A DNA stretch of 64,000 bases from a virus, in the IMG/VR virus record IMGVR_UViG_3300043399_000297, positions 62,001-126,000 of that record, one strand, 5' to 3'. Below, piece after piece: positions 5,935-49,601 of the stretch. The notes under the pieces are model-generated. The model did not search any database. It was given only the letters and a program-made list of their open reading frames with translations, and was not told where the DNA came from. Within the stretch, counting starts at the first letter, position 1. The number at the start of each line of letters is the position of its first letter. The translations under genes were made by a program, and so were the position numbers.

Positions 5935-7212
5935 ATGCCTAATAGAGAGCAAGTAGAAAATCTAGTAAAGAACGGTAAGCATTTCTGTGTATTACCCTGG
6001 GTACATTTTCACGCCTGGCCTGACTCAAGAGTGATGCCTTGTTGTGTTGCTGATAGTGAATTGCCTGTTGCTAAGATTGAAGACGACCAATCAATTATTG
6101 ATTTAATGAACAGCGATAGGTATAAGGAAATACGCGCTGCTATGCTAAACGACGAACCGGTCAATGAGTGTAAGCGTTGTTTTGATATTGAGTTGATGGG
6201 CACCTGGACTATGAGACAGTCGCATAATACTAGACGAGGACTAGAGTATGTTGACTATATCACTAATAATACGCAAGAAGATGGGCATTTGAGTGAATTT
6301 GAGATGAAGTATATGGATATACGCTTTAGTAATCTATGTAATTTCAAGTGCCGTAGCTGCGGTCCTGCTTGCTCTTCCCAACACGCACAAGAATATATAG
6401 AAAATCAGGGCAAGGATAAGTATAAACAATATTTTAATACTGATAAAGTCATTATCAACAATAATGAAGAACAAAAGTTTATGCTCAAACTTAAGCCTTA
6501 TTTGGCCGATGTATTAGAAGTTTATTTCGCAGGTGGCGAAATTATCATTACTCCTGAGCATTATGAATGTCTTGACTATTGGATAGAGAACGGACAAGCT
6601 GATACTATTGAACTTAACTATACAACCAACTTTAGTACACTACACGGATACAAAGATAAAAATCTACTAGAATACTGGAAGAAGTTTAAGAATGTTCAAG
6701 TTTGGGCAAGTCTTGATGCTCACGGGCCTTTAGCAGAATGTATTCGCAAGGGTTCAGATTGGGAAAGAATCGAACAAAATATTAAGGATTTGAAAGCAGA
6801 AGTACCGCACGTTCAATTTCAAATTACTCCCACAATTAGTATTTGGAATATCTTTAAGTTTCCTGATTTCTTTGACTATATGGTACAAAACAACTATATT
6901 TCTACGGATTCTTGTCCTAGATTTAATCTGTTAACAAGCCCTTGGTTTGCTAATATTATGATTATGCCTAAGCACGTAAAGAATAGATTGATTGAATTAT
7001 ATAGAGTATACGCAAACAAGTATGGAAAACATAACGTAGATTTGCACAATGGATTCAAGATGATCATTTATAATCTTAGTGTGGGTGAAGAAAATAAGGG
7101 CGGCATTCAAGAATTTATGAAGTACAATGAAGAAATGGACAAGTGGAGAAAAGAAAAGTTCGAAGACCTTGTCCCAGAAATTAAGGAAGTTTATGAGTGG
7201 GCACAATCCTAA
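5935..7212 (+). CDS. Twitch-type radical SAM protein (copy 3)
   Basis: 425 residues, starting three bases after the stop of copy 2. The N terminus has FCVLPWVHFHAWPDSRVMPCC and CKRCFD (auxiliary cluster cysteines), then CNFKCRSCG near residue 139. The GGEP position reads AGGEI, a departure from the usual proline that contacts the SAM amino group. Much of the body aligns by eye with copy 2 (KMRYFDIRFSN versus KYMDIRFSN). The function is inferred only at the level of radical SAM chemistry. Confidence 0.9.
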   Translation: MPNREQVENLVKNGKHFCVLPWVHFHAWPDSRVMPCCVADSELPVAKIEDDQSIIDLMNSDRYKEIRAAMLNDEPVNECKRCFDIELMGTWTMRQSHNTRRGLEYVDYITNNTQEDGHLSEFEMKYMDIRFSNLCNFKCRSCGPACSSQHAQEYIENQGKDKYKQYFNTDKVIINNNEEQKFMLKLKPYLADVLEVYFAGGEIIITPEHYECLDYWIENGQADTIELNYTTNFSTLHGYKDKNLLEYWKKFKNVQVWASLDAHGPLAECIRKGSDWERIEQNIKDLKAEVPHVQFQITPTISIWNIFKFPDFFDYMVQNNYISTDSCPRFNLLTSPWFANIMIMPKHVKNRLIELYRVYANKYGKHNVDLHNGFKMIIYNLSVGEENKGGIQEFMKYNEEMDKWRKEKFEDLVPEIKEVYEWAQS

Positions 7213-14240: not shown

Positions 14241-15425
14241 ATGACTAAAGTAGCAATGATTGGTGTTGGAAAGTTAGGACAAGATTGTGCCGAAATTATG
14301 GCAGAACAATATGATGTAGTGGGATACGATGTTCAACCTCGCTATCCTTCTTTTACTATGTGCAACTCGATTGAAGAAGCAGTAGAAGATAGGGACATTA
14401 TTTTTATTGCAGCTCCTACTCCTCACGACCCTATGTACGGAGGAGAGACACCTACTAGTCATCTTCCCAATAAAGATTTTGATTATACTATCGTAAGTGA
14501 TATTTTGGATGAAGTCAACAAGTATGTTAATCCTAAGCAGCTGGTGGTATTGATTTCTACAGTTTTACCCGGAACAGTTCGCAGTATTCTCCGTCCTAAA
14601 ATCACAAATGCAAGATTTGTTTATAACCCATATCTTATTGCAATGGGTACTATTAAGTGGGATATGGTCAACCCTGAGATGATCATCATTGGAACTGAAG
14701 ATGGTAGTCAAACCGGCGACGCCTTAGAACTAATTCAATTCTACAAGCCATTAATGAAGAACCATCCTAGGATAGAAGTTGGAACTTGGGACGAGGCAGA
14801 ATCAATTAAAATTTTTTATAATACTTTCATTAGCGCGAAAGTATCTATCGTGAATATGATTCAGGATGTAGCCGAACGAAACGGCAATATTAATGTAGAT
14901 GTAGTTACTAATGCGTTAGCTAAATCGTCGTATCGAATTACTGGTCCGGCATATATGACTGCTGGTATGGGTGATGGCGGCGCCTGTCACCCCAGGGATA
15001 ATATTGCTTTGCGTTATATGGCTGACCGCTTGGACTTGGGATATGATCTATTTGATGCTATAATGCGAGCTAGAGAAGTGCAAGCAGAGAATATGGCTAA
15101 AAAGATATTACAGCACGGAAAGAATGTAACAATTATAGGAAAAGCTTATAAGCCAGGAGTACATTATACAAACGGTAGTTCAAGTATGTTGGTCGGCTAT
15201 TATGTAGAGCAATTAGGCGGAAACGTTAATTATTACGATGTTCATACAGGCGATCTTGATCTAGCTGAAGATTGGACAGAAGTATATTTGATCGGTTATT
15301 GGGACAAGTATGTGCAAGACATAGAATTTAAGGCAGAAACCATTGCCACTATCATTGATCCTTGGAGAAAGTATACAAACGACAACTATTCAGGAACAGT
15401 CATTCACTATGGAAATTCTAGATGA
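14241..15425 (+). CDS. UDP-glucose/GDP-mannose 6-dehydrogenase family protein
   Basis: 394 residues, normal for the family. The N-terminal NAD-binding GVGKLG lies at residues 8-13. The central domain has ISAKVSIVNMI, matching the family lysine helix, and GMGDGGACHPRD places the catalytic cysteine at residue 249. A C-terminal Rossmann-like domain follows (IIGKAYKPGV). The enzyme oxidises the C6 hydroxyl of a nucleotide sugar to a carboxylate using two NAD. A Shine-Dalgarno (GAAGGA) and a TTTAAATA box lie upstream. It overlaps the next glycosyltransferase-like gene by 4 bases, supporting a role in making a sugar donor. Confidence 0.9.
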   Translation: MTKVAMIGVGKLGQDCAEIMAEQYDVVGYDVQPRYPSFTMCNSIEEAVEDRDIIFIAAPTPHDPMYGGETPTSHLPNKDFDYTIVSDILDEVNKYVNPKQLVVLISTVLPGTVRSILRPKITNARFVYNPYLIAMGTIKWDMVNPEMIIIGTEDGSQTGDALELIQFYKPLMKNHPRIEVGTWDEAESIKIFYNTFISAKVSIVNMIQDVAERNGNINVDVVTNALAKSSYRITGPAYMTAGMGDGGACHPRDNIALRYMADRLDLGYDLFDAIMRAREVQAENMAKKILQHGKNVTIIGKAYKPGVHYTNGSSSMLVGYYVEQLGGNVNYYDVHTGDLDLAEDWTEVYLIGYWDKYVQDIEFKAETIATIIDPWRKYTNDNYSGTVIHYGNSR

Positions 15426-24478: not shown

Positions 24479-24566
24479 AAAAATTGTCAACAAGATTAAA
24501 CGAGAGATTACATACCGCAAGCGTGTCAAAGAACTACGCAAAAGAGATCCGTTCATTTACAAATGA
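24462..24566 (+). CDS. Small basic protein, 34 residues, coupled to the carbamoyltransferase gene
   Basis: A short ORF with ATG at 24462 and a good Shine-Dalgarno (GGAGAG) 5-6 bases upstream. It overlaps the preceding SGNH gene by 17 bases and the following gene by ATGA. The peptide begins MFKFIKKIVNKIKREITYRK and ends KRDPFIYK; about 40 percent of residues are lysine or arginine and it should form an amphipathic helix. It may be a membrane- or RNA-binding peptide or a partner of the carbamoyltransferase. Coding status is supported by the ribosome site and tight packing only. Confidence 0.6.
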   Translation: MFKFIKKIVNKIKREITYRKRVKELRKRDPFIYK

Positions 24567-26047
24567 GTTATCTAGGCATTAGCTGCGGCTTTCACGATGC
24601 TGCTGTCAGTGTAGTTGACAGTGTTGGCAATATCACCTTCGCCGGACATAGCGAACGTTATAGTAAGAAAAAACACGATGAAAACTTATCTGTTGATCTA
24701 GTCAAAGATGCACTAACGCATTCATATGGCTCTATGGAACTACACTATTATGAGAGACCATACATTAAGGCTATCAGGCAATGGCAAGCTGGACAAGATA
24801 TCGGGCCATTGAACGTTAAAGATATAATTGGCTCAGATGTATTAGATACTCTAAAAATGTATGATAGTAAGATTCATACACACAATCATCATCTTTGTCA
24901 CGCCGCAGCCGGCTTTCAAACAAGCCCATTCAATGATGCTACTGTAGTTGTCATTGATGCGATAGGGGAATTAGATACTATTAGTATTTGGCACGCCACT
25001 TATAATAAGAAAGGTAGAGCGAAGTATAAGAAGCTTTGGGGAAAGAAATATCCTAATTCAATAGGACTAATGTATTCAGCTATGACACAGAGAGTAGGTC
25101 TTAGACCATTAGACGAAGAATACATATTGATGGGTATGGCAGCATATGGCAAACCTAAATATTTTGATTTATTAAATGATACCTTTTTGTCTAATCCTGC
25201 GTATATTGATTTTAGGCAGAACTTGCATACAGGAGTAGATCAAAGTTTCTTGTCCGGTGCAGATGATATGGATATTGCTAGTTCTGCGCAAGCGTTGGCA
25301 GAAGTATTGATTCGAATTGTATTGTTAAAGGCGATGCATCTGGGAAGAAGTAGTAACCTAGTATATAGCGGAGGAGTAGCACTCAACTGTGCAGCCAATA
25401 GATATCTAGGAAGCTATTTCAAAAATATGTGGATTATGCCTAACCCAGGTGATGCAGGCAATAGTCTTGGTGCAGCAGCATTAGGGTACGGTAAGAAATT
25501 AAATTGGACTAATGCATTCTTGGGTTATGAAATCAAAGGCGATTATCCGGTTGACAATCTCATAAAAGAGTTGCATAGTAATAAGATCGTAGGAGTAGCT
25601 AGTGGTAGAGCAGAGTTCGGTCCAAGAGCATTGGGTAATCGTAGTCTGTTAGCAGACCCACGCGGCCCTAATATTAAGGATAAGGTTAATGAGATTAAGC
25701 GAAGACAAAAGTTCAGACCATTTGCGCCGATCGTTTTGGAGGAGTTGGTTACTGATTACTTTGATATGCCTACTGGTTGGACTGACTCTAGGTATATGCA
25801 AGTCGTCGCTATTTGTAGGCATCCTGGTTTATTTCCTGCTATCGTTCACGCTGACGGGACTAGTCGTGTTCAGACTGTTCCTAAAGATGAATCAGGAATC
25901 AGAAAGCTTTTAGAAGTTTGGTACGAACAGACCGGCTGCCCTATGCTTCTTAATACATCACTGAATATTCGCGGTGAACCCATGGTCAACGATAGAAATG
26001 ATGCTGACCGCTTTGAAAAACTCTATGGAGTAAAAGTATATTCATAA
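24563..26047 (+). CDS. Carbamoyltransferase (NodU/CmcH/TobZ family)
   Basis: 494 residues. It begins YLGISCGFHDAAVSVVD, the Kae1-like ATP-binding start of the family, with HNHHLCHAAAGFQTSPF (metal-binding histidines), VVIDAIGE and, in the C-terminal domain, GRAEFGPRALGNRSLLADPR. The family makes carbamoyl adenylate from carbamoyl phosphate and ATP and transfers the carbamoyl group to a hydroxyl of a sugar or natural product. The start codon overlaps the stop of the small basic ORF. It probably completes the decoration pathway of the island. Confidence 0.94.
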   Translation: MSYLGISCGFHDAAVSVVDSVGNITFAGHSERYSKKKHDENLSVDLVKDALTHSYGSMELHYYERPYIKAIRQWQAGQDIGPLNVKDIIGSDVLDTLKMYDSKIHTHNHHLCHAAAGFQTSPFNDATVVVIDAIGELDTISIWHATYNKKGRAKYKKLWGKKYPNSIGLMYSAMTQRVGLRPLDEEYILMGMAAYGKPKYFDLLNDTFLSNPAYIDFRQNLHTGVDQSFLSGADDMDIASSAQALAEVLIRIVLLKAMHLGRSSNLVYSGGVALNCAANRYLGSYFKNMWIMPNPGDAGNSLGAAALGYGKKLNWTNAFLGYEIKGDYPVDNLIKELHSNKIVGVASGRAEFGPRALGNRSLLADPRGPNIKDKVNEIKRRQKFRPFAPIVLEELVTDYFDMPTGWTDSRYMQVVAICRHPGLFPAIVHADGTSRVQTVPKDESGIRKLLEVWYEQTGCPMLLNTSLNIRGEPMVNDRNDADRFEKLYGVKVYS

Positions 26048-26056
26048 GTAGTTATT

Positions 26057-29000
26057 ATGCTACGTGATGTATTTTACTATGGACAGAAACCAAACGTTCA
26101 TCCGAGAGAACAGTTTGCTAAAGATTTAGAAGATGCTAGGAATAAAGCGACTACTCGTGACTTTTGGATAATCAACGAATTCTGCGATTATCGTAATTTT
26201 AATTGGGATTTCGATTTTGAGTTTCTCCCAGATGAAGATGTATGGGCAGAAGATCATAACAATGTATGGCCTAGCCAACATCAAAAAGATTCAGGAACCT
26301 GGTTATGCCCCAAACAGCATAGTGACTTAATTATATATCGGTGTGATGTTGATCCTATCTGGCGCAAGAACGAAAAGCAAAGTGTTAATTGGGTTGAATT
26401 AGATTTAATTGACCATACTAAGTTTGACTTTAGTTGGCATCCTGATCCTACTGATCCTCCTTATATCTATAAGTGGGGATGCAAATATTATCCTGCTCAA
26501 ATCAAGCACGTATTAGAATATCGTGTTCCGGGCTCAACTCAAGAAAAATTTATGGATATTTCTGCGGAACTTTTGCCTGACTGGGATAAATGGGTAATAC
26601 CTGACAGTATAAATAAATCCGGGTTTGATTTTTCTTGGAGACCCAGTCCTCTTGACCCGCCGCTTATATATGAATTTGGAACGCAATGGCAAAAGGATGG
26701 TGGACCGATTTATGTTGCTAGTGGAGCAACTAAAAGGAAGTATATCAATGATCAAAAAGCTACGAGGATTGCTTCAAACGAAAATTGGACGATTCCTGAC
26801 AATATTGATATTGCTGGATTTGATTTATCATGGCATCCAGATAATATTAGTCCTCCTTATATCTATGTATTTGCTACTCAGTGGGCACTCAGTGGCGGAC
26901 CTGTTTACACAGTTCCTGGCGCAACTGAAATCAAATATGTAGACGCTCAGGTAGCTACTGCACTCCCCGATAAAACAAATTGGATATACAACGAAGAAGA
27001 AATTGACGTTTCTAGTTTTGACTTCAGTTGGCATCCCTTTTCAGGGGACGACCCTTTCATCTATCAGTTTGGTACTCAATGGCAAAAGACTGGAGGTCCG
27101 AAATATATTACTCCGGGCGCGGATGAATCAAGCCCGATCAAGTATGTTGATACTCGTATTATCAAAGCTACTCACCTGCCTGACAAAAACAAGTTCATTG
27201 TATTGGGAAACAATGCTGTTCAGGAGTTTGATTATAGTTGGCATCCAGATGATACAGAAGATCCATATATCTATGTGTTTGGCAATCAATGGCATACAGC
27301 AGAAGTTATGCCAACCATTGAATACAGGATGACTGGCGCAACCCAATACAAGTATATAAATGATACTATTGCTATTCTTGGTCCTAATATGACACATTGG
27401 TTTTACGACTCAAACGAGATAGATGTTTCTGATTTTGATTTTAGTTGGTGTCCTAATCCCGGAGAACCTGAATTAATTTATGAGTTTGCTACTCAGTGGC
27501 AAAAGACTGGTGGTCCTAGATATATTGTGCCGGGTGCTACTGACGTAAAGTATTTAGACTTTCAAAAAGCAAGAGCATTGCCTTCTGAAAAAAATTGGAC
27601 AGTTCCTAGCAATATTGATGCAACGTTGTTTGACTTCAGTTGGCATCCTGATGCGACTAGCCCTCCTTATATCTATGTATTTGCTACTCAGTGGGCACTC
27701 AGTGGCGGACCTATATATACTGTACCGAACGCAACCGAATACAAATATGTCGATGAACAGATAGCTACTGCATTACCTGATATGACCAATTGGGTATATG
27801 ACGAAACAAAGATTGATGTTGAAAGTTTTGACTTCAGTTGGCATCCATATGTTGAAGATCAGCCATATATCTATCAGTTCGGTACACAATGGTGGCCAAC
27901 TGGTGGACCAAAATATATTGCACCGGGGGCAACAAGCGCAAGCCCAGTAAAATACATTGATACACGTATCATTAAAGCTAATACAATACCGGGTCTTGAA
28001 AATTGGGAAATTCCGGACGAGGTAGATAAAAGTAAGTTTGATTTTACTTGGATCCCTCATCCAGAAGACCCTCCCTATATATATGTGTTCGGCAATCAGT
28101 GGTTTAGTGCAGAAAAAATGCCCACTGTAAGATATATTGTTGAAGGTGCAACTGAAATTAAGTATGTTCGCGATATCATTGCTACAATAAAACCAAACAA
28201 AGACAATTGGACAATAGCTAATAATATAGTAGTGAAAGAGTTTGATTTTAGTTGGATACCAGATCCTCATTCTCCTCCTTATATCTATGTGTTCGGTAAT
28301 CAATGGTATTCAGCAGAAGAAATGTCAACTGTAGAATATCACACTCTTGGTGCTACTGAAAGAAAATATATTAATGATATTAGGGTTGTGTTAGACAAAA
28401 ACTTTACGAATTGGGAAATACCAAAAGGAATCGATGTTTCGCGATTTGATTTTAGTTGGATCCCTCATCCTAAAGCACCTCCATATATCTACCAGTTCGG
28501 CACCTTAAAGGATCCGTTGGATGGACCTAGATATATTACTCCAGGCAACAATGGAGAAATAGTTCGTGTACCAAGAATAGAACTTGATGAAATTGAATTT
28601 ATGCCTATCAATAGATATTATATTGAAACTACGTTGGATGACTTGATTATTAAACATCCAGATGAAATGTTCTGGGCGCTGAATAAAGAAATAGATTATT
28701 CTACATTTAACTTTGACTGGACCCCTTCATTGGACCAAGCAGATTATATTCAGGTATTCGGTCAAAGCTCAAGTATAAAAACTCAAACTTATTTGATCAA
28801 TTCTACATTGTGGACTAAAGGGTTGCGAGAGTTTAATTATGTAGAAGAACAAGAGAAAAAGACTGTTTCTGATTTGGATATCTTTTTTGTGGACAAAGGA
28901 AACTCAGAAGCTAATGAAAGATTCCATATACTAAAAAACAAGTTCGGCTCAAAGATTCAAAAGACACGATATCTCAACAGTTGGGTAGACACAATTAATC

Positions 29001-30604
29001 GCTGTATTAATCGTGCTACAAGTAATCTAATTTGGATTCTTAACAGCGAATTAGATTATTCTAACTTTGACTTTACTTATTACCCTAACCCTTGGCAGAT
29101 GAAGATGGTTCACGTATTTGGAACACAACATAGTCATTGGGGAACAACTTTTATGGTCAATCGCGAAACGTTTCCCGAAGATACAAAGTATATTAAAATC
29201 ATTGAACATTTGTCAAATCTAAACTTTGTCAAGGACATTAGAGCCAAAGCAACTGAATGTGTATATGATATTGTCATTATAGACCACAATAATATAGAAA
29301 GCTTATCAGTTACAGAAACGATGAAAAGAGTTTGGGCTCCTAATAGGAATGTTACTACTATAAAATATGAGGATAGTTATCTAAACACAATTCGTAACTA
29401 TGTAAAGAAGTTACCTGACAAAAAAGAACATTATCTTTGGATTTGCTCAAGCGTATGCGACTATACTAACTTTGACTTTAGTTATATATGTGATCCCTTT
29501 GCTAAAGATAATCTACACGTATTTCCCAGCAATAATCAAAAGTTTGGGGACACGTTCTTGTTGGATGTAAACAAGACTAAAGAAATCATAGATGATCTAG
29601 AAAAACTTGAAGATTATAATAAGGTGAGCTATAACAGTGCTACGAAGGCGAATAGATTGTTGCCACCAATCATCGTCACAGAAAATGATACGCATACCAA
29701 TTCATTAGAAACTATTACAGGATTTCCTTATGCAAGACTGATTACTAAGGACAACTTGAATGTTGAAGTTCCTGAGATTGAACCTATGAATCTATGGTCA
29801 CCTGAAACTAAGAACATTCAGGTACTAAGCACCGGTGCAACTCATATTGTAGCTCCTATAGAAATTAAAGATTATGTCAAGAAAGAACTATACGAATATC
29901 CATATATTAAACGCGCTCCAAAGTTAGCATTGTCTAATCCTATTGATATCGTGTTCTTGAGCAACGGTGAAATTGGTGCAGAAGAAAACTATGAACATCT
30001 ATTGAATATCACTAAGAACTTGAAGAACCGTGTAGTGAGAGTAGATGGGGTGAACGGTCGTGTTGCAGCATATCATAAAGCAGCAGAAGCTAGCGAAACG
30101 CCGTGGTTCTTCACGGTGTTTGCTAAGTTGAAGGTTAGTCCCAAATTTGATTTTAACTGGCAACCTGACAGAATGCAAATCCCCAAGCACTACATCTTCC
30201 ACGCAAAGAATCCTGTCAATGGGTTGACATATGGTCACCAGGCAATGATTGCATACAACAAAAAGCTTACTCTTGCTAATGAGGGATATGGACTAGACTT
30301 TACATTAGATGACGAACACGAGGTTGTGCCACTTATCTCTGGTACCGCACATTATAATACAGATGAATTTTCTACTTGGAGAACAGCATTTAGAGAGGTA
30401 ATCAAGCTTAAAGCAGACATTAGTGATATAGCCAAAGATAGACTTGATGTATGGTTGAATAAAGCAGAAGGTGACTTTGCTCAATATAGCATTAAGGGTG
30501 CATTGGATGCTGATGAATATTATGATGAAGTCAATGGCGAGTTTGACAAACTCAAGCTAAGCTATGAATGGGATTGGCTACGCAAAAAGTTTGGGGAAAT
30601 GTGA
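26057..30604 (+). CDS. Giant tandem-repeat protein with FDFSW-P-PPYIY-FGTQW repeats and degenerate GT-A-like C terminus
   Basis: 1515 residues, the largest gene in the window. After a leading unit it contains about eleven well-conserved repeats of 65-70 residues, centred on FDFSWHP, PPYIY and FGTQW, followed by YxxPGATExKY and LPDxxNW. Then come three or four diverged units (for example LNSELDYSNFDF). The final roughly 200 residues match the GT-A-like protein at 1703-2647. Groups of four repeats are themselves duplicated with an 810-base period, and a 51-base DNA stretch is identical at 26852 and 27662. No signal peptide is visible. It may be a scaffold or a binding protein that evolved by repeating part of a glycosyltransferase fold. 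Confidence 0.85.
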   Translation: MLRDVFYYGQKPNVHPREQFAKDLEDARNKATTRDFWIINEFCDYRNFNWDFDFEFLPDEDVWAEDHNNVWPSQHQKDSGTWLCPKQHSDLIIYRCDVDPIWRKNEKQSVNWVELDLIDHTKFDFSWHPDPTDPPYIYKWGCKYYPAQIKHVLEYRVPGSTQEKFMDISAELLPDWDKWVIPDSINKSGFDFSWRPSPLDPPLIYEFGTQWQKDGGPIYVASGATKRKYINDQKATRIASNENWTIPDNIDIAGFDLSWHPDNISPPYIYVFATQWALSGGPVYTVPGATEIKYVDAQVATALPDKTNWIYNEEEIDVSSFDFSWHPFSGDDPFIYQFGTQWQKTGGPKYITPGADESSPIKYVDTRIIKATHLPDKNKFIVLGNNAVQEFDYSWHPDDTEDPYIYVFGNQWHTAEVMPTIEYRMTGATQYKYINDTIAILGPNMTHWFYDSNEIDVSDFDFSWCPNPGEPELIYEFATQWQKTGGPRYIVPGATDVKYLDFQKARALPSEKNWTVPSNIDATLFDFSWHPDATSPPYIYVFATQWALSGGPIYTVPNATEYKYVDEQIATALPDMTNWVYDETKIDVESFDFSWHPYVEDQPYIYQFGTQWWPTGGPKYIAPGATSASPVKYIDTRIIKANTIPGLENWEIPDEVDKSKFDFTWIPHPEDPPYIYVFGNQWFSAEKMPTVRYIVEGATEIKYVRDIIATIKPNKDNWTIANNIVVKEFDFSWIPDPHSPPYIYVFGNQWYSAEEMSTVEYHTLGATERKYINDIRVVLDKNFTNWEIPKGIDVSRFDFSWIPHPKAPPYIYQFGTLKDPLDGPRYITPGNNGEIVRVPRIELDEIEFMPINRYYIETTLDDLIIKHPDEMFWALNKEIDYSTFNFDWTPSLDQADYIQVFGQSSSIKTQTYLINSTLWTKGLREFNYVEEQEKKTVSDLDIFFVDKGNSEANERFHILKNKFGSKIQKTRYLNSWVDTINRCINRATSNLIWILNSELDYSNFDFTYYPNPWQMKMVHVFGTQHSHWGTTFMVNRETFPEDTKYIKIIEHLSNLNFVKDIRAKATECVYDIVIIDHNNIESLSVTETMKRVWAPNRNVTTIKYEDSYLNTIRNYVKKLPDKKEHYLWICSSVCDYTNFDFSYICDPFAKDNLHVFPSNNQKFGDTFLLDVNKTKEIIDDLEKLEDYNKVSYNSATKANRLLPPIIVTENDTHTNSLETITGFPYARLITKDNLNVEVPEIEPMNLWSPETKNIQVLSTGATHIVAPIEIKDYVKKELYEYPYIKRAPKLALSNPIDIVFLSNGEIGAEENYEHLLNITKNLKNRVVRVDGVNGRVAAYHKAAEASETPWFFTVFAKLKVSPKFDFNWQPDRMQIPKHYIFHAKNPVNGLTYGHQAMIAYNKKLTLANEGYGLDFTLDDEHEVVPLISGTAHYNTDEFSTWRTAFREVIKLKADISDIAKDRLDVWLNKAEGDFAQYSIKGALDADEYYDEVNGEFDKLKLSYEWDWLRKKFGEM
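26852..27712 (+). repeat. Higher-order internal repeat (810-base period) in the giant gene
   Basis: The bases 26852-26902 recur identically at 27662-27712. The flanking protein repeats also match in order: units with VFATQWALSGG, then QFGTQW..TGG with an inserted S-P segment, then VFGNQW. This shows that a block of four repeats was duplicated recently or homogenised by recombination. Confidence 0.85.
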
Positions 30605-30677: not shown

Positions 30678-31055
30678 ATGAAGAAGATTGTGTCAGCTAT
30701 TGCCCTCGCTACAGTGCTTTTTTCTAGCACTGCTGCTCTTGCAGACGGTCGCGATTATCGCTGGGGAGTAGACAGCAATCGTCATAGCCCATATTACGGT
30801 AGAAATTATGATCGTGGATATGATCGCAATTATGATAGGCATCGTGATGGTGGTGTAAGCACAGGAGGTGCTGTTGCAATTGGGCTTGGGGCATTGATCG
30901 TTGGTGCATTGATTGCTAATGGTAATAGGAATAATCGCAACACCTATCAGGATCAGCAGCAGTATTATCAGCCACAGCAGGTTTGTGAAGATATCATCAA
31001 GTATGACTATTACAATAACCCCTATGTTGCTGGTAGAAATTGCTGGTATAGATAA
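30678..31055 (+). CDS. Small exported protein with glycine-zipper segment
   Basis: 125 residues from the ATG at 30678; an in-frame TTG 15 bases upstream is less likely because the AAGGAT ribosome site fits the ATG. A Sec-type signal peptide is clear: KK, a hydrophobic core, and cleavage after TAALA. The mature part has RNYDRGYDRNYDRHRDGG, then GGAVAIGLGALIVGALIANG, a glycine-zipper-like hydrophobic segment, and a Gln/Tyr-rich tail with two cysteines. It is probably a periplasmic or outer-membrane-associated protein expressed early in the host, a possible moron. It has its own promoter, and the tmRNA promoter follows immediately. Confidence 0.85.
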   Translation: MKKIVSAIALATVLFSSTAALADGRDYRWGVDSNRHSPYYGRNYDRGYDRNYDRHRDGGVSTGGAVAIGLGALIVGALIANGNRNNRNTYQDQQQYYQPQQVCEDIIKYDYYNNPYVAGRNCWYR

Positions 31056-31058
31056 AGA

Positions 31059-31087
31059 TTGACATTTATATCACATTGTGATATATA
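31059..31087 (+). promoter_or_regulatory. Promoter of the tmRNA gene, TTGACA-N17-TATATA
   Basis: TTGACA at 31059-31064 and TATATA at 31082-31087, with a 17-base spacer, about 25-35 bases before the acceptor piece. It is a near-consensus host-type promoter, so the RNA is probably made early and strongly. Confidence 0.78.
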
Positions 31088-31120
31088 AAGTTATCAGTTG
31101 TTGATACAATCTGATGTTTG

Positions 31121-31446
31121 TGCAGGACCCGGGGGCGGTACCCGGCAGGTCCACCATCAACCTTGTCACTGTAGCTAGTGAAAGCTGACTAGTGAAAAAG
31201 GATAAACCTGTCGAAGGAGGATAAGCTCTCCGGGGGACGGGGGAATGGCCCGCTCGACATGCGGGAGGACAAGGTTGTTGATGGGCCTGAAACAGGATCG
31301 ACTGCAAGGCGGAGGTGAGAGTAGACTGATTGGTTGGTCGCATATAGACCAAAATAAACAACTGCAAATGATAATGACTTTGCATTTGAATTGGCTCTAG
31401 CAGCCTGATTCATTGGGTATGGCTCCACCCCGAAACAGAACGGGCC
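31121..31446 (+). ncRNA. ssrA: Circularly permuted (two-piece) tmRNA
   Basis: The acceptor piece comes first: T-arm stem CCGGG/CCCGG (31129-31133, 31141-31145), acceptor 3' strand CAGGTCC (31146-31152) and ACCA ending at 31156. An intervening segment of about 126 bases follows. The coding piece begins at 31283 with GGGCCTG, which pairs over 7 bases with the acceptor strand, then GAAACAGGATCGAC as in tmRNA 5' ends. A 14-codon tag ORF starts at GCA 31364 and reads ANDNDFAFELALAA before TGA at 31406-31408. ATCAACCTTGTC after the CCA pairs with GACAAGGTTGTTGAT before 31283, extending the acceptor stem in the precursor. Trans-translation tags stalled peptides for proteolysis. Outer ends are approximate. 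Confidence 0.93.
31364..31408 (+). other. tmRNA proteolysis-tag reading frame (ANDNDFAFELALAA)
   Basis: The resume codon is GCA at 31364-31366, preceded by an A-rich stretch, and the stop is TGA. The tag begins AND as alphaproteobacterial tags do and ends in LALAA, the ClpXP/ClpAP-type degron ending. Confidence 0.9.
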
Positions 31447-31458
31447 TCTTTCCATACA

Positions 31459-31466
31459 GATAAATA
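31459..31466 (+). promoter_or_regulatory. Late promoter box (GATAAATA)
   Basis: GATAAATA just after the tmRNA coding piece and 4 bases before the ATG at 31471. No Shine-Dalgarno is present, so near-leaderless late transcription is likely. Confidence 0.6.
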
Positions 31467-31470
31467 CAGT

Positions 31471-33999
31471 ATGGACATTTCAGAACTCGCCAATTTCAAT
31501 TTAAGTGATGCAGTATCTTTTCACGAGGAACTAAACCCACAGCTTTGGGAAGACCACAAATTAGACAGAGAAGTTCGTGATCAGTTATTGTTGATTGCAG
31601 AAGACTTTGTAGAATATCTTGGTATTGGTACACTTAAAGTAAAAGATGTTACTATCAGTGGTAGTAACGCTGCATATTCATATACTCCCCACAGTGATTT
31701 AGATTTGCATATCATAGTAGATTTTAATGATCTACCTAACGATCCAGTGTACCAAGAACTATTCACTGCTAAAAAAACAATATATAATGAAATGCACGAT
31801 ATAACGGTTCATAGTGTTCCTGTAGAATTATATGTGCAAGATATTAATCAACCTGTGCAGTCATTGGGTGAATATAGTATTGTTCACAACAAGTGGATTC
31901 GTATTCCTAAAAAGCGTAGAGCTAACTTTGACGAAGTTGCTACTAAAGCCAAATATGATAAACTAGCTGACTTGATTGAACTTACATTGAAGTCAAAAGA
32001 CTATAATAAAGTGAAAAATACACTTGATTTGCTCAAGCGTTATCGTAAAGCTGGGTTGGAAAAAGAAGGTGAGTTTGGTCCTGAAAATCTCGCATACAAG
32101 GCTCTTAGGAAGCAAGGTGCTGTAAAAGATTTGTTTGATCTTAAAGCTAGGCTTCACGCTGAACGGTTGAGTATTGAAGAAGATTCAAAATTACTTGACA
32201 AGCCGGAAATGACTATAGCACAGTTAGCAGAGAAGCACGGTGTATCTCGTATGGAAATTGCAACGCAGTTGGACAAAGGCATTAAGGTTGAACTTGAACA
32301 CACTAGTCATAAAAATGTAGCTCGTGAGATTGCATTAGACCATATTGCTGAGGATCCAAAATACTATGATAAATTATCTAAGGCTGAGTTGGAAGAAGAG
32401 ATTGTAGATGAAACCGCAGAAGAAAATCAAATAATTAGCTTGATAGCTAAACACGCGGCTGATAATATCGTAGACATAATGCAAGTTAAAGAAAATGCAT
32501 TTTTATCATTTATACAAGCAGGTATGACTCCCAAACACAATCTTACAGTGTTTGGTGTCAAAATCAAAGATTTAGGTATTCCTAAAGTCAAGGATCCCAC
32601 ATTAGCAAAATTGTTAAAAACTATGGAAATCAAGGTTAAAACTTCTAAAAATTGGGAAAATGATGAGGGTATAAAAACGCACGGTAGTTATTATCCCGGA
32701 GAAAATTATATTGAACTTTATTTTCCGGCTCACGAGTTCACTGCTAAAAAAAGAGATTCATCATTGCAAGTAGAAATAGCAGACACACTTGCTCACGAAA
32801 TACAACACGCATTGGATGACTTTAAAAGTAAAGGAAACGCATTTAAAGATTTAGCATCTTATTCAGGTGGTAAAGATTATGAATCATACTTAAAACTTCC
32901 ATATGAAGTAAATGCTAGATTCCAGCAAGCAACTATGGATATAGCAAAGTATATAGCTACACCGAAAAAAGATGGATCAAGAACTACACAAAAAGATTTG
33001 CCCGAATTGATTAGATATGCGTTTGAGAAAAATCAATTAAACAATATATATAGAAAGAACCAAGCAGAATATAAGCGATTACTCACTAGAGCATATAAAT
33101 TTTTTCAAGCAGAATTAAATGCTCCCAAGAAAGCAACGCCTCAGAATATAGTAAGTAGGGCAGTCAATTGGATATTAGGAAAGCCTACTACACAGGTTAA
33201 GGAAGCATCAGGATATATCCCCAGAAAAAAAGAAAATAACTATTTAGGCTGGGAATTCACAAAACCAAAACCTGATTATTGGATGATGCAAGAAGCGGTT
33301 GAAGAATATTACAAGAAAGATGGTAAATGGTTTCCCCACAGAACACACGGAATTCATCAATTGGTCACTAGACAGGAATTACGTGAATCTATGCAAGATG
33401 AAGTCAAAGAATTCTGGAACCAAATGATTCGTTTAGACGGTCGTAAAGAAGTAAAATTAAAGCCCGGTAGTTCAGTTAGTGTCATACAATGTTGGTCTCA
33501 TCCTTATGATTCTATATTTGAGTTGAGGGGCAACTTAAACCCTAAAAAAATAGCAGATGTATATTATGAGGATGGAGGATCAATCAGTTATATACAATTT
33601 GAAGACGGATCAACATTCCCGGACAAATCATTTCTAGACCGAGGACAAGGCGGAGAATTGGATGGTATCATAACTACTTTCTTTCCGTCTAAGCAAGCAG
33701 CCGAACATATGTTGACTGCTTTACGGTTAGTTGTTCCTGCTGGATGGAAATTAAGCACCGCTAACTTAAACGAATCTTCGTTGAATGAAGCCTCGGGATA
33801 TATTCCAAGTAAAAAAGAAAAGAACGACCCTCGCTTCAAGACTGCCCTCACTGTAGATGTAAAGCCAGACAGCATCAAAAAGAATGCTAATGCGTTCAAC
33901 TGGAAAACATCGCGGGCCGGCATTCCTCCCCAGGCTAGATCAGATGGCAAACTAGCAGAAGATTTGATGAAAGAGTTTAAAAACTTTTTGGGTAAGTAA
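31471..33999 (+). CDS. Multidomain late protein: nucleotidyltransferase-like, DUF5661-like and metallopeptidase-like domains
   Basis: 842 residues. GSNAAYSYTPHSDLDLHIIVD near residues 65-85 is a nucleotidyltransferase-fold GS...DxD motif. Around residues 247-300 a helix-turn-helix-like stretch leads into VELEHTSHKNVAREIALDHIAEDPKYYDKL, a DUF5661-like signature. HEIQH at 442-446 is a zinc-metallopeptidase HExxH, with E in YEVNAR nearby as a possible third ligand. Two repeats, EASGYIPRKKE and EASGYIPSKKE, mark the C terminus. The start MDISEL recalls the MELITEL start of T4 Alt, an injected head protein. Packaging and injection with the DNA is a hypothesis. Confidence 0.75.
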   Translation: MDISELANFNLSDAVSFHEELNPQLWEDHKLDREVRDQLLLIAEDFVEYLGIGTLKVKDVTISGSNAAYSYTPHSDLDLHIIVDFNDLPNDPVYQELFTAKKTIYNEMHDITVHSVPVELYVQDINQPVQSLGEYSIVHNKWIRIPKKRRANFDEVATKAKYDKLADLIELTLKSKDYNKVKNTLDLLKRYRKAGLEKEGEFGPENLAYKALRKQGAVKDLFDLKARLHAERLSIEEDSKLLDKPEMTIAQLAEKHGVSRMEIATQLDKGIKVELEHTSHKNVAREIALDHIAEDPKYYDKLSKAELEEEIVDETAEENQIISLIAKHAADNIVDIMQVKENAFLSFIQAGMTPKHNLTVFGVKIKDLGIPKVKDPTLAKLLKTMEIKVKTSKNWENDEGIKTHGSYYPGENYIELYFPAHEFTAKKRDSSLQVEIADTLAHEIQHALDDFKSKGNAFKDLASYSGGKDYESYLKLPYEVNARFQQATMDIAKYIATPKKDGSRTTQKDLPELIRYAFEKNQLNNIYRKNQAEYKRLLTRAYKFFQAELNAPKKATPQNIVSRAVNWILGKPTTQVKEASGYIPRKKENNYLGWEFTKPKPDYWMMQEAVEEYYKKDGKWFPHRTHGIHQLVTRQELRESMQDEVKEFWNQMIRLDGRKEVKLKPGSSVSVIQCWSHPYDSIFELRGNLNPKKIADVYYEDGGSISYIQFEDGSTFPDKSFLDRGQGGELDGIITTFFPSKQAAEHMLTALRLVVPAGWKLSTANLNESSLNEASGYIPSKKEKNDPRFKTALTVDVKPDSIKKNANAFNWKTSRAGIPPQARSDGKLAEDLMKEFKNFLGK

Positions 34000-34660: not shown

Positions 34661-35761
34661 ATGTCTCAAATGTCTGATACCCTCACTGTTACTTCGATCC
34701 AGGCGCGCAAGGCTATTCTTGCTGCTTTCAAGGCAAAGCGTCCTGTCTTCCTCTGGGGCCCTCCGGGCATCGGTAAGTCGGAAGTCGTTCAGGAAATTAC
34801 TGAGGAACTCGGTGGTTATATGGTCGATCTGCGTATGGCGCAGATGGAACCCACTGATATTCGTGGTATCCCCTACTACAACAAGGACCTCGGCAAGATG
34901 GATTGGGCCGAGCCCGTCGATCTTCCCAGCGCAGAACTTGCTGCTGAATACCCCATCGTTGTTCTCTTCCTTGACGAAATGAACTCTGCTCCCCCGGCTG
35001 TTCAGGCTGCTGGTTATCAGCTTATTCTGAACCGTCGTGTTGGTAAGTATAAGCTGCCCGATAATGTTGTTATCGTTGCTGCTGGTAACCGTGACAGCGA
35101 CAAGGGCGTTACTTATCGTATGCCGATGCCGCTTGCTAATCGTTTCGTTCACCTTGAAATGCGTCCCGACTTCAATGCTTGGCAGCAGTGGGCTGTTCAC
35201 AAGGCTGTTCACAAGGACATTGTTGGTTATCTCTCGTTCGCTAAGCAGGATATGTATGACTTTGATGCAAAGTCTTCTTCTCGTGCTTTTGCTACCCCGC
35301 GTTCGTGGGTGTTCGTGAGCGACCTGCTCGTTGACGAGGACAATGTTGACAACGATACACTGTTCAATCTTGTTGCAGGTTCTGTCGGTGACGGTCTTGC
35401 TACTAAGTTTATGGCACATCGTCGTGTTGCTGGTCAGATGCCTGAGCCGATCGACATTCTCGACGGTAAGGTAAAGGACCTCAAGGTCAAGGAAATCTCT
35501 GCGATGTACTCGCTCACGATTTCTATGTGCTACGAACTCAAGGACGCACTTGATAACAAGCGTGTTGACAACAAGCAGTTCCACGTGATGGCTGACAATT
35601 TCTTCGAATACATCATGAAGAACTTCGAAACTGAACTGGTTGTGATGGGTGCGAAGATTGCGCTCAAGACTTATCGTCTGCCGATTGAGCCCTCGCAGCT
35701 TTCTAATTTTGACGAGTTCCACAAGAAGTACAGTAAGTATATCGTGGAAGCTGGCAACTAA
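34661..35761 (+). CDS. MoxR-type AAA+ ATPase
   Basis: 366 residues. Walker A GPPGIGKS at 33-40, Walker B VVLFLDEMNSAPP, sensor AAGNRDSD and an arginine-rich LANRFVHLEM segment follow in the order found in MoxR ATPases. These act as chaperones that remodel partner proteins, usually with a VWA-domain partner; the next gene encodes one. Codons are GC-ending and uniform (CTC, GGT, CGT, AAG), unlike the AT-rich island, which suggests high expression. A strong promoter precedes it and a strong terminator follows. The exact cellular target is unknown. Confidence 0.92.
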   Translation: MSQMSDTLTVTSIQARKAILAAFKAKRPVFLWGPPGIGKSEVVQEITEELGGYMVDLRMAQMEPTDIRGIPYYNKDLGKMDWAEPVDLPSAELAAEYPIVVLFLDEMNSAPPAVQAAGYQLILNRRVGKYKLPDNVVIVAAGNRDSDKGVTYRMPMPLANRFVHLEMRPDFNAWQQWAVHKAVHKDIVGYLSFAKQDMYDFDAKSSSRAFATPRSWVFVSDLLVDEDNVDNDTLFNLVAGSVGDGLATKFMAHRRVAGQMPEPIDILDGKVKDLKVKEISAMYSLTISMCYELKDALDNKRVDNKQFHVMADNFFEYIMKNFETELVVMGAKIALKTYRLPIEPSQLSNFDEFHKKYSKYIVEAGN

Positions 35762-35774
35762 GCTAGCGGCTCCT

Positions 35775-35809
35775 GGGGAGAGGTTCGAGACAGCCTCTCC
35801 CCTTTTTTT
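35775..35809 (+). terminator. Rho-independent terminator after the ATPase gene
   Basis: Perfect 9-base stem GGGGAGAGG/CCTCTCCCC with a 10-base loop, followed by seven T. The next promoter begins four bases later, separating two early units. Confidence 0.93.
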
Positions 35810-35812
35810 CGG

Positions 35813-35841
35813 TTGACATTCCCTTCAAGGTTTGTTATATT
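35813..35841 (+). promoter_or_regulatory. Early promoter TTGACA-N17-TATATT
   Basis: TTGACA at 35813-35818 in CGGTTGACA, TATATT at 35836-35841; the leader contains AAGGAG before the ATG at 35867. Confidence 0.85.
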
Positions 35842-35866
35842 GTCTCTATAAAGCAAGGAGATTTTT

Positions 35867-37177
35867 ATGAGTCAAGTTATTCCCGGTACTGCGACTAAGC
35901 CCAAGAAGGGTAAGCGCACTCGCAGCCAAAAGTTTGAAAATCTGATCGGTCCGACTGATCCTAAGATTGACCACGAAGCTCGTGAACGTCTGATCACTGC
36001 TCGTATTGGTCTCCTTCTTCGTCATAGCTTTTTCGGCAACCTCGCTACTCGTCTCCAGCTTGTAAATGCTGACGAGTGGTGCTCCACTGCTGCTACTGAC
36101 GGTCTTCGTTTTTATTACAACAGTCGTTTTATCAAGATGCTTAAGACTAAGGAGGTTGAATTCCTCGTTGGTCACGAAGTGCTTCACGTAGTCTACGATC
36201 ACCTTGGTCGTCGTGACAGTCGTGATCCTGAAATCTGGAACATCGCTAACGACTATGCTGTTAACGCTGACCTTAAGCGTCACAAGGTCGGTGAAATGAT
36301 CACTACTGTTCCTGCTCTCTTTGAGCCTAAGTATGATGGTAAGGCTTCTGAGGAAATCTATGATGACCTTATGAAGAATGTCAAGTATATTGACATTGAT
36401 GAACTCCTTGACAAGATGCTTGACGATCACCTTGAAGACGAGGGTCAGGGTATGGGTGATGAAGACGGTGATGAAAATGGTCAGAAGGGTAATGGCAAGC
36501 GTCCTAAGATGAGTCCTGAGGAGCGTGAGCGCGCCCGTCAGGAGATGAAGCAGGCTATCATCAATGCTGCACAGAGTGCCGAAGCTGGTTCTATCCCGGC
36601 TGGCGTTCAGCGTATGATCAAGCAGCTTACTGATCCTGTTATGCCCTGGCGTGAACTGATCCAGACGAACCTTACTTCGTCTATCAAGAGCGATTACACT
36701 TGGATGCGTCCTTCTCGTCGTTCTTGGCATATGGATGCTGTTATGCCCGGTATGAACCCGGGTGAAGAAATCGATGTTGATATCTATATCGATATGTCGG
36801 GTTCTATCTCTAACAAGCAGGGTATGGCATTTCTTTCGGAAGTCGCCGGTATGATGGAAGCGTTCGATGGTTATTCGCTTCGTGTCACTTGCTTTGATAC
36901 TCGCTGCTATAACACACAGGAGTATACTAGCGAGAATATGGAGAATATCGAGGAGTATGAGCTTGCAGGTGGCGGCGGTACTGACTTCGACTGCATCTTT
37001 GACGACCTTAAGGAAGCAGGACGTGTCCCGGTTCGCTTGATCGTATTCACTGACGGTTATCCTTGCGGTAGCTGGGGTGATGAGGATTACTGTGATACGA
37101 CTTGGATCATTCACGGTGATCCCAATCCGAACCCGCCCTTCGGTACGTATGCTATCTATGACGACCACAGAAAGTAA
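35867..37177 (+). CDS. VWA-domain protein with HExxH metallopeptidase-like N-terminal domain
   Basis: 436 residues. HEVLH at residues 103-107 and a downstream NIANDYAVN match the putative metallopeptidase domain found with VWA proteins. An acidic linker (DEDGDENGQ) and a charged helix follow. The C-terminal VWA-like domain has the MIDAS motif DMSGS, then a GGTDF and FTDGYP motif. Such proteins pair with MoxR ATPases, as here. The codon use matches the upstream ATPase. Likely function: ATP-driven remodelling or metal-dependent cutting of a target protein during infection; the target is unknown. Confidence 0.88.
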   Translation: MSQVIPGTATKPKKGKRTRSQKFENLIGPTDPKIDHEARERLITARIGLLLRHSFFGNLATRLQLVNADEWCSTAATDGLRFYYNSRFIKMLKTKEVEFLVGHEVLHVVYDHLGRRDSRDPEIWNIANDYAVNADLKRHKVGEMITTVPALFEPKYDGKASEEIYDDLMKNVKYIDIDELLDKMLDDHLEDEGQGMGDEDGDENGQKGNGKRPKMSPEERERARQEMKQAIINAAQSAEAGSIPAGVQRMIKQLTDPVMPWRELIQTNLTSSIKSDYTWMRPSRRSWHMDAVMPGMNPGEEIDVDIYIDMSGSISNKQGMAFLSEVAGMMEAFDGYSLRVTCFDTRCYNTQEYTSENMENIEEYELAGGGGTDFDCIFDDLKEAGRVPVRLIVFTDGYPCGSWGDEDYCDTTWIIHGDPNPNPPFGTYAIYDDHRK

Positions 37178-48053: not shown

Positions 48054-49601
48054 ATGGCGAACACAGCATCATTAGTTAAGGATCCATATAAGAAAACCGT
48101 CTTCAAGAACCAAAAGGAGATTGAGGACTTTATCAAGTGTTGTGATCCAGACACTGGTTATCTATACTTTATGGATAACTTCTTTATGATTCAGCATCCC
48201 ACACAAGGTGCTATGAATTATCACCCTTGGGACTATCAAAAAAAATTAATCGAAACATATCACAAATATCGTTTTAGTATTAGTTTGATGCCTAGACAGT
48301 CAGGTAAGAGTACCTCAGCAGCAGGATATTTGCTTTGGTATGCGATGTTCGTACCTGACAGCACTATTCTAATTGCAGCACACAAGTATACCGGTGCACA
48401 AGAAATTATGCAGCGTATACGATATGCATATGAAAACTGTCCAGACCATATCAAAGCAGGGGTGACCACTTATAATAAAGGCTCGCTTGATTTTGAGAAC
48501 GGATCACGCATTGTGTCTGCAACTACTACTGAAAATACCGGTCGTGGTATGTCTATCTCATTACTATATCTTGACGAGTTCGCCTTCGTTAGACCCTCAA
48601 TCGCAACTGAATTCTGGACTTCTATCACACCAACATTAGCAACAGGTGGTAAGGCAATTATCACTTCTACTCCAAACAGTGACGAAGATCAATTTGCTCT
48701 TATTTGGAAGATGGCTAACAAAACCGAAGATGAATTTGGAAACACTACTGAGCTAGGTGTAAATGGATTCAGATCGTATCGCGCATATTGGAATGAACAG
48801 CCCGGAAGAGATGAAAAATGGGCTAGAGAAATGCGCGCCCAATTAGGTGAAGATCGCTTTAATCGTGAAATTGGTTGTGAATTCATTATCGCAGATGAAA
48901 CGTTGATCAATCCAAACACATTGTTCAAACTTGAGGGGGTAGAACCAACAGCAAGAATGGGACAAGTTCGTTGGTACAAGAAGCCCGAAAAGGGCAATTT
49001 ATATGTAGTCGGTCTTGATCCAAGTTTGGGTACGGGCGGTGACCCTGCTGCTATACAAGTATTTGAAGCTAATACAACTACACAAATCGGTGAGTGGAAA
49101 CATAATAAAACAGATATTCCTAGTCAAATTAAACTATTAGCTGAAATCTGCAAGTATATCGCAGAGTGTACCGGTGAACCAAACAGTATCTATTACTCAG
49201 TAGAAAACAATAGTATCGGTGAAGCAAGTCTTATCTCATTAAACGAGTTTGGTGAGAGCAATATTCCTGGCATATTCTTAAGCGAAAACGGAAAAAAACG
49301 TAAAGGCTTTAATACAACACAGAAGCCTAAACTTGCTGCCTGCGCAAAGTTCAAGACATTACTTGAATCAGGAAAGATGACGATTTATAGCAAGTCATTG
49401 ATAACAGAGTTAAAAGCCTTCGTAGCAAGTGCAGGTAGTTATGCAGCTAAGATAGGTGACACAGACGATTTGGTAATGGCTTCGTTATTATCTGTCAGAA
49501 TTATGCAGCAATTAGCTGACTATCACGGTGACTTAGAAAGTCATATTCGTGATCACGATGAAATCATAGCACCACTTCCATTCTTTGCCGTCATTAACTA
49601 A
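48054..49601 (+). CDS. gp17: Terminase large subunit (gp17-like)
   Basis: 515 residues. MPRQSGKST near 79-87 is the Walker A of viral terminases, LLYLDEFAFV the Walker B with catalytic glutamate and TSTPNSDED the coupling motif. VVGLDPSLGTGGDP starts the RNase H-like nuclease with its first aspartate, and DTDDLVMASLL carries the last acidic residues. It powers DNA packaging and cuts the concatemer. It is shorter than T4 gp17 (610 residues). No small terminase gene is next to it in this window. Confidence 0.95.
   Translation: MANTASLVKDPYKKTVFKNQKEIEDFIKCCDPDTGYLYFMDNFFMIQHPTQGAMNYHPWDYQKKLIETYHKYRFSISLMPRQSGKSTSAAGYLLWYAMFVPDSTILIAAHKYTGAQEIMQRIRYAYENCPDHIKAGVTTYNKGSLDFENGSRIVSATTTENTGRGMSISLLYLDEFAFVRPSIATEFWTSITPTLATGGKAIITSTPNSDEDQFALIWKMANKTEDEFGNTTELGVNGFRSYRAYWNEQPGRDEKWAREMRAQLGEDRFNREIGCEFIIADETLINPNTLFKLEGVEPTARMGQVRWYKKPEKGNLYVVGLDPSLGTGGDPAAIQVFEANTTTQIGEWKHNKTDIPSQIKLLAEICKYIAECTGEPNSIYYSVENNSIGEASLISLNEFGESNIPGIFLSENGKKRKGFNTTQKPKLAACAKFKTLLESGKMTIYSKSLITELKAFVASAGSYAAKIGDTDDLVMASLLSVRIMQQLADYHGDLESHIRDHDEIIAPLPFFAVIN

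Follow-up and report, generated by a model that had tools for sequence, protein, structure and literature searches.

In the permuted tmRNA family the intervening segment (IVS) of the transcript is cleaved out, giving two mature pieces, and the segment lost from these two-piece tmRNAs had been regarded as nothing more than a short disposable spacer. The permuted tmRNA of Alphaproteobacteria (the Caulobacter type; Rfam families RF01849 and RF04321) shares with the gene analysed here the gene order, the T-arm type, the encoded CCA, an acceptor stem with G3-U70, the UCGAC sequence, the LAA-type end of the tag and the terminal stem of the IVS; the difference lies in the fact that the present gene is phage-encoded and that its IVS measures 126 nt, whereas the median in bacteria is 27. 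The gene lies in the window, that is, the whole 64,000-nucleotide stretch of DNA that was analysed, corresponding to positions 62001-126000 of a viral IMG/VR record of 244,022 bases (IMGVR_UViG_3300043399_000297).

Phage-borne two-piece tmRNAs have already been published, and the gene in the window is a further example. According to the available part of PMC9004378, such a tmRNA is found in the cultured Methylophilales phage Melnitz, under a glutamine riboswitch, and 53 out of 133 phage tmRNA structures are two-piece; many more are reported here, and uniqueness of the gene described in an earlier note on this DNA is not supported. The same part of that paper discusses the riboswitch and the host transition, and an ORF in the IVS is not mentioned in it. 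Like the gene in the window, that of Melnitz is a phage-borne permuted tmRNA gene with an enlarged IVS (142 nt); unlike it, it contains a frame, beginning MFKWLSKTRLVV, whose ATG is preceded by GGAG and which stays open across the entire IVS and the first 42 nt of the coding piece. A homologue (57% identity) of the IVS protein of L201/L361 is annotated in Melnitz just upstream of its tmRNA, which fits an exchange of such genes with the neighbourhood. Permuted tmRNAs were also found in eight other cultured phages, of Alphaproteobacteria, in most of whose records they are unannotated; their IVSs are 93-111 nt long and look structured rather than coding.

The tmRNA genes of huge phages, with genomes above 200 kb (PMC7162821), resemble the present one in the presence of the gene and in the size of the phage genome; they were detected with ARAGORN, a program which reports nothing for two of the long-IVS copies considered below (L452 and L410). 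The available part of PMC11915505 presents a database with 79 phage sequences and a survey of 97,179 sequences, in which, as far as that part goes, no permuted tmRNA is described as having a protein gene in its IVS; single cases are given in which the IVS of a permuted tmRNA contains a tRNA-Ala gene or a repetitive element, and these cases are similar to the phage copies in that the IVS holds more than a spacer, and differ from them in being single cases with no protein gene described. The same part states that tmRNA group I introns sometimes bear endonuclease genes; in these, as in the phage copies, a protein gene lies within a removed segment of the precursor, but the introns sit in the T-loop and are self-splicing, whereas the phage IVS lies outside the mature pieces, where religation is not needed. 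In the subset of the open literature that was searched, no tmRNA paper with ORFs in the intervening segment was found, and nested protein genes in the IVS, even a complete thioredoxin, are undescribed there; priority beyond that subset cannot be claimed.

We propose, with a probability of about 0.83, that the gene is a phage-encoded permuted tmRNA whose excised segment has become a cargo site, filled and refilled with a structured RNA or a small gene. This reading draws on direct observations of anatomy, of synteny, of the length contrast with bacteria, of an excess of ORFs and of purifying selection acting on many nested ORFs. The features of the locus are the following.

26057..30604, + strand: large ORF, 1515 aa, synteny anchor upstream of the tmRNA (tblastn of window proteins against related loci)
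31059..31087, + strand: promoter, TTGACA at 31059-31064, 17-nt spacer, TATATA at 31082-31087 (sequence; 10/12 consensus)
31093..31156, + strand: acceptor piece (Rfam alignments, script geometry, conservation with L095)
from about 31093, + strand: helix strand joining the coding piece, AUCAGU pairing with ACUGAU at 31325-31330
31129-31145, + strand: T-arm (read from the sequence)
31146-31152, + strand: acceptor 3' strand CAGGUCC (read from the sequence)
31154-31156, + strand: encoded CCA, preceded by A73 (read from the sequence)
31157..31282, + strand: IVS, 126 nt, separating the CCA end from the coding piece; site of the nested genes of relatives
31157..31167, + strand: 5' arm of the processing stem, UCAACCUUGUC, pairing with 31268-31282
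31268..31282, + strand: 3' arm of the processing stem, GACAAGGUUGUUGAU, whose last four bases, UGAU, adjoin the acceptor strand
31283..31449, + strand: coding piece, comprising GGGCCUG, UCGAC, a helix strand (31303-31330), hairpins, the tag frame and the 3' hairpin region (RF01849 and RF04321 alignments)
31283-31289, + strand: acceptor 5' strand GGGCCUG, forming 7 pairs with CAGGUCC, including G3-U70
directly after 31289, + strand: UCGAC (read from the sequence)
31364..31408, + strand: tag reading frame ANDNDFAFELALAA, with tag at 31364-31405, resume codon GCA and stop UGA at 31406-31408 (ARAGORN)
48054..49601, + strand: terminase large subunit, which defined the related phages (PHROGs matches)

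Positions 31093-31449 on the + strand are a permuted tmRNA gene in a 244-kb record of a large, aquatic tailed phage. ARAGORN reports in the window a single tmRNA, of the permuted form (tmRNA*), at 31064-31499, with the tag ANDNDFAFELALAA; cmscan matches RF04321 at 31093-31408 (93.5 bits, gathering 47, E 8e-17) and RF01849 at 31055-31449 (83.2 bits, gathering 50, E 5e-21), both far above the cut-offs, so that the covariance-model search proposed in the earlier note bears out its permuted tmRNA with tag. The order of the elements, read from the sequence, is that expected for a circularly permuted gene, the acceptor part coming first, then the IVS and then the coding part; the T-arm, the CCA, the 7-base acceptor stem and the tag ORF which that note had listed are all found at the expected places, although its start, at 31121, is about 28 bases too late. 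The encoded CCA and the 7-bp acceptor stem with G3-U70 would suit charging with alanine, and the predicted tag frame, with an Ala resume codon, an LAA-type end and a stop directly after ANDNDFAFELALAA, is likewise that of a permuted tmRNA. A DNA pattern specific for this tag, searched in viral contigs, gave no match. The near-consensus promoter noticed earlier is plausible, since the nearest relative, L095, has TTGACA-17-TATAAA at the same place upstream of its tmRNA; the promoter in the window is absent from the list of the scanner, whose filter accepts only T as the sixth base. The acceptor stem of L095 (CGCCUCC/GGGGGCG) shows a paired change with respect to the window and the tag is different, the remaining core being nearly identical. 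The viral set includes 17 different fully complementary acceptor stems, and, this set having been chosen for acceptor pairing, it is the variety of the stems that is evidence and not the pairing itself; U70 and G3 are present in 297/297 viral and bacterial genes compared, which had been selected on pairing, on a GGG start and on C/TCCACCA.

As to the IVS, the earlier note mentioned its role in processing, correctly describing its ends as extending the acceptor stem (31157-31167 pairs with 31268-31282, with one 3-nt bulge), while its enlargement, the most interesting part, was passed over. The IVS of the window is non-coding and structured, with a closing stem and three hairpins; no frame fills it, the only ATG frame in it being a late one that starts 88 nt in. 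Its final UGAU is shared by 150 of about 180 distinct viral genes. From the sequence, then, the locus would be a tmRNA that looks functional and whose IVS is enlarged, structured and non-coding, and nothing beyond this is claimed for it. The stability of the interior of the IVS was dropped as evidence for an RNA element, as its z-score (about -2.5 against dinucleotide shuffles) is similar to those of coding IVSs (about -2 on average); a search of the IVS for known RNAs in Rfam at a permissive E-value gave only chance matches. No clear sequence similarity is seen between the IVSs of the window and of L095. The non-coding IVSs can be aligned among close relatives, and in some unrelated phages just the terminal motif is shared, for which reason a shared structured-RNA family in non-coding IVSs is not claimed. 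The IVS of L102 (1605-1700) contains two perfect T-arm-like hairpins, AGTGG TTCAATT CCACT and TGAGG TTCGAAT CCTCA, which are perhaps tRNA remnants.

Viral contigs and bacterial genomes were sampled with one identical T-arm-to-CCA pattern, and the length of the IVS was taken as the distance between the CCA and the acceptor GGG in genes whose acceptor stem pairs completely; the frequencies come from the pattern matches listed and are not population estimates. Among the matches listed, the IVS of 102 viral genes (a few of which came from terminase-related records and not from the pattern) has a median of 69.5 nt and a maximum of 382, with 28/102 at least 100 nt long, while that of 111 bacterial genes has a median of 27 and a maximum of 82, none (0/111) reaching 100 nt. 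A second bacterial sample (RF04321, 398 genomes, one phylum) gave 23 measurable IVSs, taken among the best RF04321 hits; a single one of these IVSs, of 115 nt, was longer than 47 nt.

Long viral IVSs are usually occupied by a single sense ORF, which begins 9-23 nt past the CCA, behind a Shine-Dalgarno sequence (typically CCA-UAAGGA) that belongs to the 5' arm of the processing stem, and which stops within the 3' arm, most often at the UGA of the conserved UGAU beside the acceptor GGG; the stop lies 1 nt before the end of the IVS in 32/55 cases and 12-13 nt before it in 19 more. An ORF of this layout, whose ribosome-binding site and stop each lie in one of the stem arms, fills the IVS of many relatives. 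Among genes sampled through their T-arm and not for ORFs, an ORF spans 13/16 of the viral IVSs of at least 125 nt among the matches listed, against a mean of 1.1 and a maximum of 3 in 100 shuffles; in the set selected for the Shine-Dalgarno sequence, 52/53 IVSs of at least 125 nt among the matches listed are spanned, against 2.6 in shuffles. By a strict criterion, an ORF of at least 20 aa is present in 79/181 distinct genes among the matches listed, forming 45 protein clusters. Most testable clusters of nested ORFs have a pN/pS of 0.1-0.4, as obtained by a simple count method on short genes; two small clusters (the L377 and L105 groups) give values above 1 for the frame chosen by the script, which probably picked the wrong one. 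Some of the nested products are recognizable: L452 contains a full thioredoxin (Pfam 4e-21), L405 a DUF2061 membrane protein with the whole domain (Pfam 3.5e-20), L558 an HNH-type protein (PHROGs homing endonuclease, 7e-15) and L401 a PGDYG protein, and many others, judged by eye, are one-helix membrane peptides. The terminal stem is retained in coding IVSs, being below -8 kcal/mol in 67% of them versus 10% with one arm shuffled, and a tag frame is found by a simple pattern downstream of 36/49; in some contigs, as in Melnitz, the ORF continues past the IVS into the coding piece. The nested genes are predicted from relatives, nearly all of which are metagenomic contigs.

The phage setting of the gene, which the earlier note had called T4-like, agrees with a large-phage genome of T4 type, as the window contains head protein genes besides the terminase. 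The latter shares about 50% identity with the terminases of PA5oct, Phosso and other large phages, and occurs at 82-90% identity in 80 viral IMG/VR contigs. No DNA similarity of the locus to phage isolates was found. A tmRNA is present in the terminase-group records that reach far enough upstream of the terminase, mostly about 15-24 kb upstream and on the same strand where the records extend that far; a homologue of the 1515-aa ORF lies directly upstream of it in at least 12 related phages (tblastn; L095, L102, L103, L105, L107, L108, L373, L407, L410, L432, L463 and L472), which indicates that the tmRNA, carried in a phage genome and found at the same place in relatives, is an old resident gene of the group. 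At this orthologous site the IVS ranges from about 22 (L103) to 373 nt (L410); it contains nested ORFs of 120 aa in L410, 104 aa in L472, 68 aa in L373, 65 aa in L463 and 57 aa in L407; in L105 and L108 it codes for membrane peptides, and the window, L095, L102 and L103 lack an ORF there. The tmRNA of L103 (1660-1690), where the IVS is so short, has CCACCU in place of the expected CCACCA.

The tags of the group include VAANDNNVDLALAA, ANDNYYYEDLRLAA, ANDSQFALAA, ANDELFALAA and ANDSQFSIAA, and the T-loops are of GGCGGUA or UUCGACU types. Since both vary among close phage relatives, the type of the gene does not fix the host, and host assignment from either was dropped; contrary to what had been supposed earlier, the gene does not indicate the host group, as beta-type T-loops and other tags occur at the same site in phages with 83-90% terminase identity.

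If the phage had acquired an ordinary host-type tmRNA that works normally, the longer IVS would be neutral, drifting throw-away sequence; this would agree with the fit of the mature parts to the alphaproteobacterial model, with the phage tmRNAs already known from the available part of PMC9004378 and with the dissimilarity of the IVSs of the window and L095. Neutral drift, however, would not yield long IVSs spanned by ORFs in 13/16 and 52/53 cases, nor low pN/pS together with whole Pfam domains, nor bacterial IVSs that stay short, and we consider this explanation unlikely; for the IVS of the window itself, drift is possible.

Far less probable is that the long cases are separate genes lying between two unlinked tmRNA halves, decaying remnants and not functional tmRNAs: the covariance models do split the longest copies (G013, G439, G452 and G457) and find no match in G444, but we ascribe the splits to the length of the insert, and those copies keep a fully complementary acceptor stem and the terminal stem, with a tag frame following in most. 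That a mobile intron or homing element comparable to the tmRNA group I introns makes up the insert appears the most improbable of all, in spite of the similarity of the L558 nested protein to an HNH homing endonuclease and of the endonuclease genes sometimes found in such introns (PMC11915505, available part); indeed, known introns sit in the T-loop, while the phage segment always lies between the CCA and the acceptor 5' strand, the cargo proteins are diverse and mostly not endonucleases, and the window, where the T-loop is intact, contains no intron match among 4227 Rfam families.

Returning to the cargo-site reading, what we infer for processing, aminoacylation, rescue activity, translation of the nested genes and any coupling is the following. 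In a single transcript, the acceptor stem and the longer processing stem would form one nearly continuous helix joining the ends of the IVS, which RNase P and the 3' tRNA-processing nucleases would excise, leaving an acceptor piece and a coding piece still paired. These would be charged with alanine through G3-U70 and, together with host SmpB, carry out trans-translation when ribosomes stall during infection, by which an LAA-type degradation tag is added; no SmpB gene was found in the 244-kb record, which may be a fragment, and SmpB of the host would therefore be needed. Since the excised segment needs only complementary ends, there would be room in it for cargo in phages; bacterial copies would keep a short spacer while phage copies grow, the same locus being filled and refilled in relatives with a structured RNA, as in the window, or with one complete small protein gene. 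As the two stem arms contain, respectively, the ribosome-binding site and the stop of the nested gene, translation and tmRNA maturation should compete on the precursor; alternatively, the freed segment may serve as a small mRNA. A more far-reaching version, which we advance tentatively and hold to be somewhat less probable than not, is that the IVS is a general expression slot in phages, which exchange small genes in it, and that each precursor is either translated or matured, the slot of the window holding a structured RNA; tmRNA output would then depend on how busy the ribosomes are.

On this evidence, a phage RNA gene for translation quality would double as a carrier of small protein genes, and the turnover of cargo at one orthologous site would let phages acquire small genes that need no new promoter. 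That the ribosome-binding site and the stop overlap the processing stem offers a direct test of translating versus maturing one RNA. Because ARAGORN and the Rfam models miss or split copies with long inserts, both the tmRNAs and their nested genes are probably under-annotated.

Some observations concern the neighbourhood of the gene. The ORF directly downstream of the tmRNA (31471-33999) has an N-terminal part, GSNAAYSYTPHSDLDLHIIVDF, which resembles by eye a nucleotidyltransferase motif, and a DUF5661 further along; likewise, the tmRNA of the cultured phage DSS3P8 is followed by a gene with the annotation Nuc-transf superfamily. An ATAAATA similar to the T4 late promoter box (window 31461-31473, also in L095) ends 4 nt before the ATG of this ORF, whose late transcript may thus be nearly leaderless. 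Further downstream (34661-37177) lie genes for an AAA (MoxR-like) ATPase and a DUF2201 metallopeptidase/VWA protein, more than 92% identical in L095, and on the other side UDP-glucose dehydrogenase-like and carbamoyltransferase-like genes (14241-15425 and 24563-26047), probably involved in sugar or surface modification. The sole tRNA of the record is a tRNA-Phe(GAA) (G000 34946-35027; L003 14946-15027); in the 364-kb phage contig L373, ARAGORN reports near the tmRNA a tRNA with anticodon CUA (6981-7055, called tRNA-Pyl), possibly an amber suppressor.
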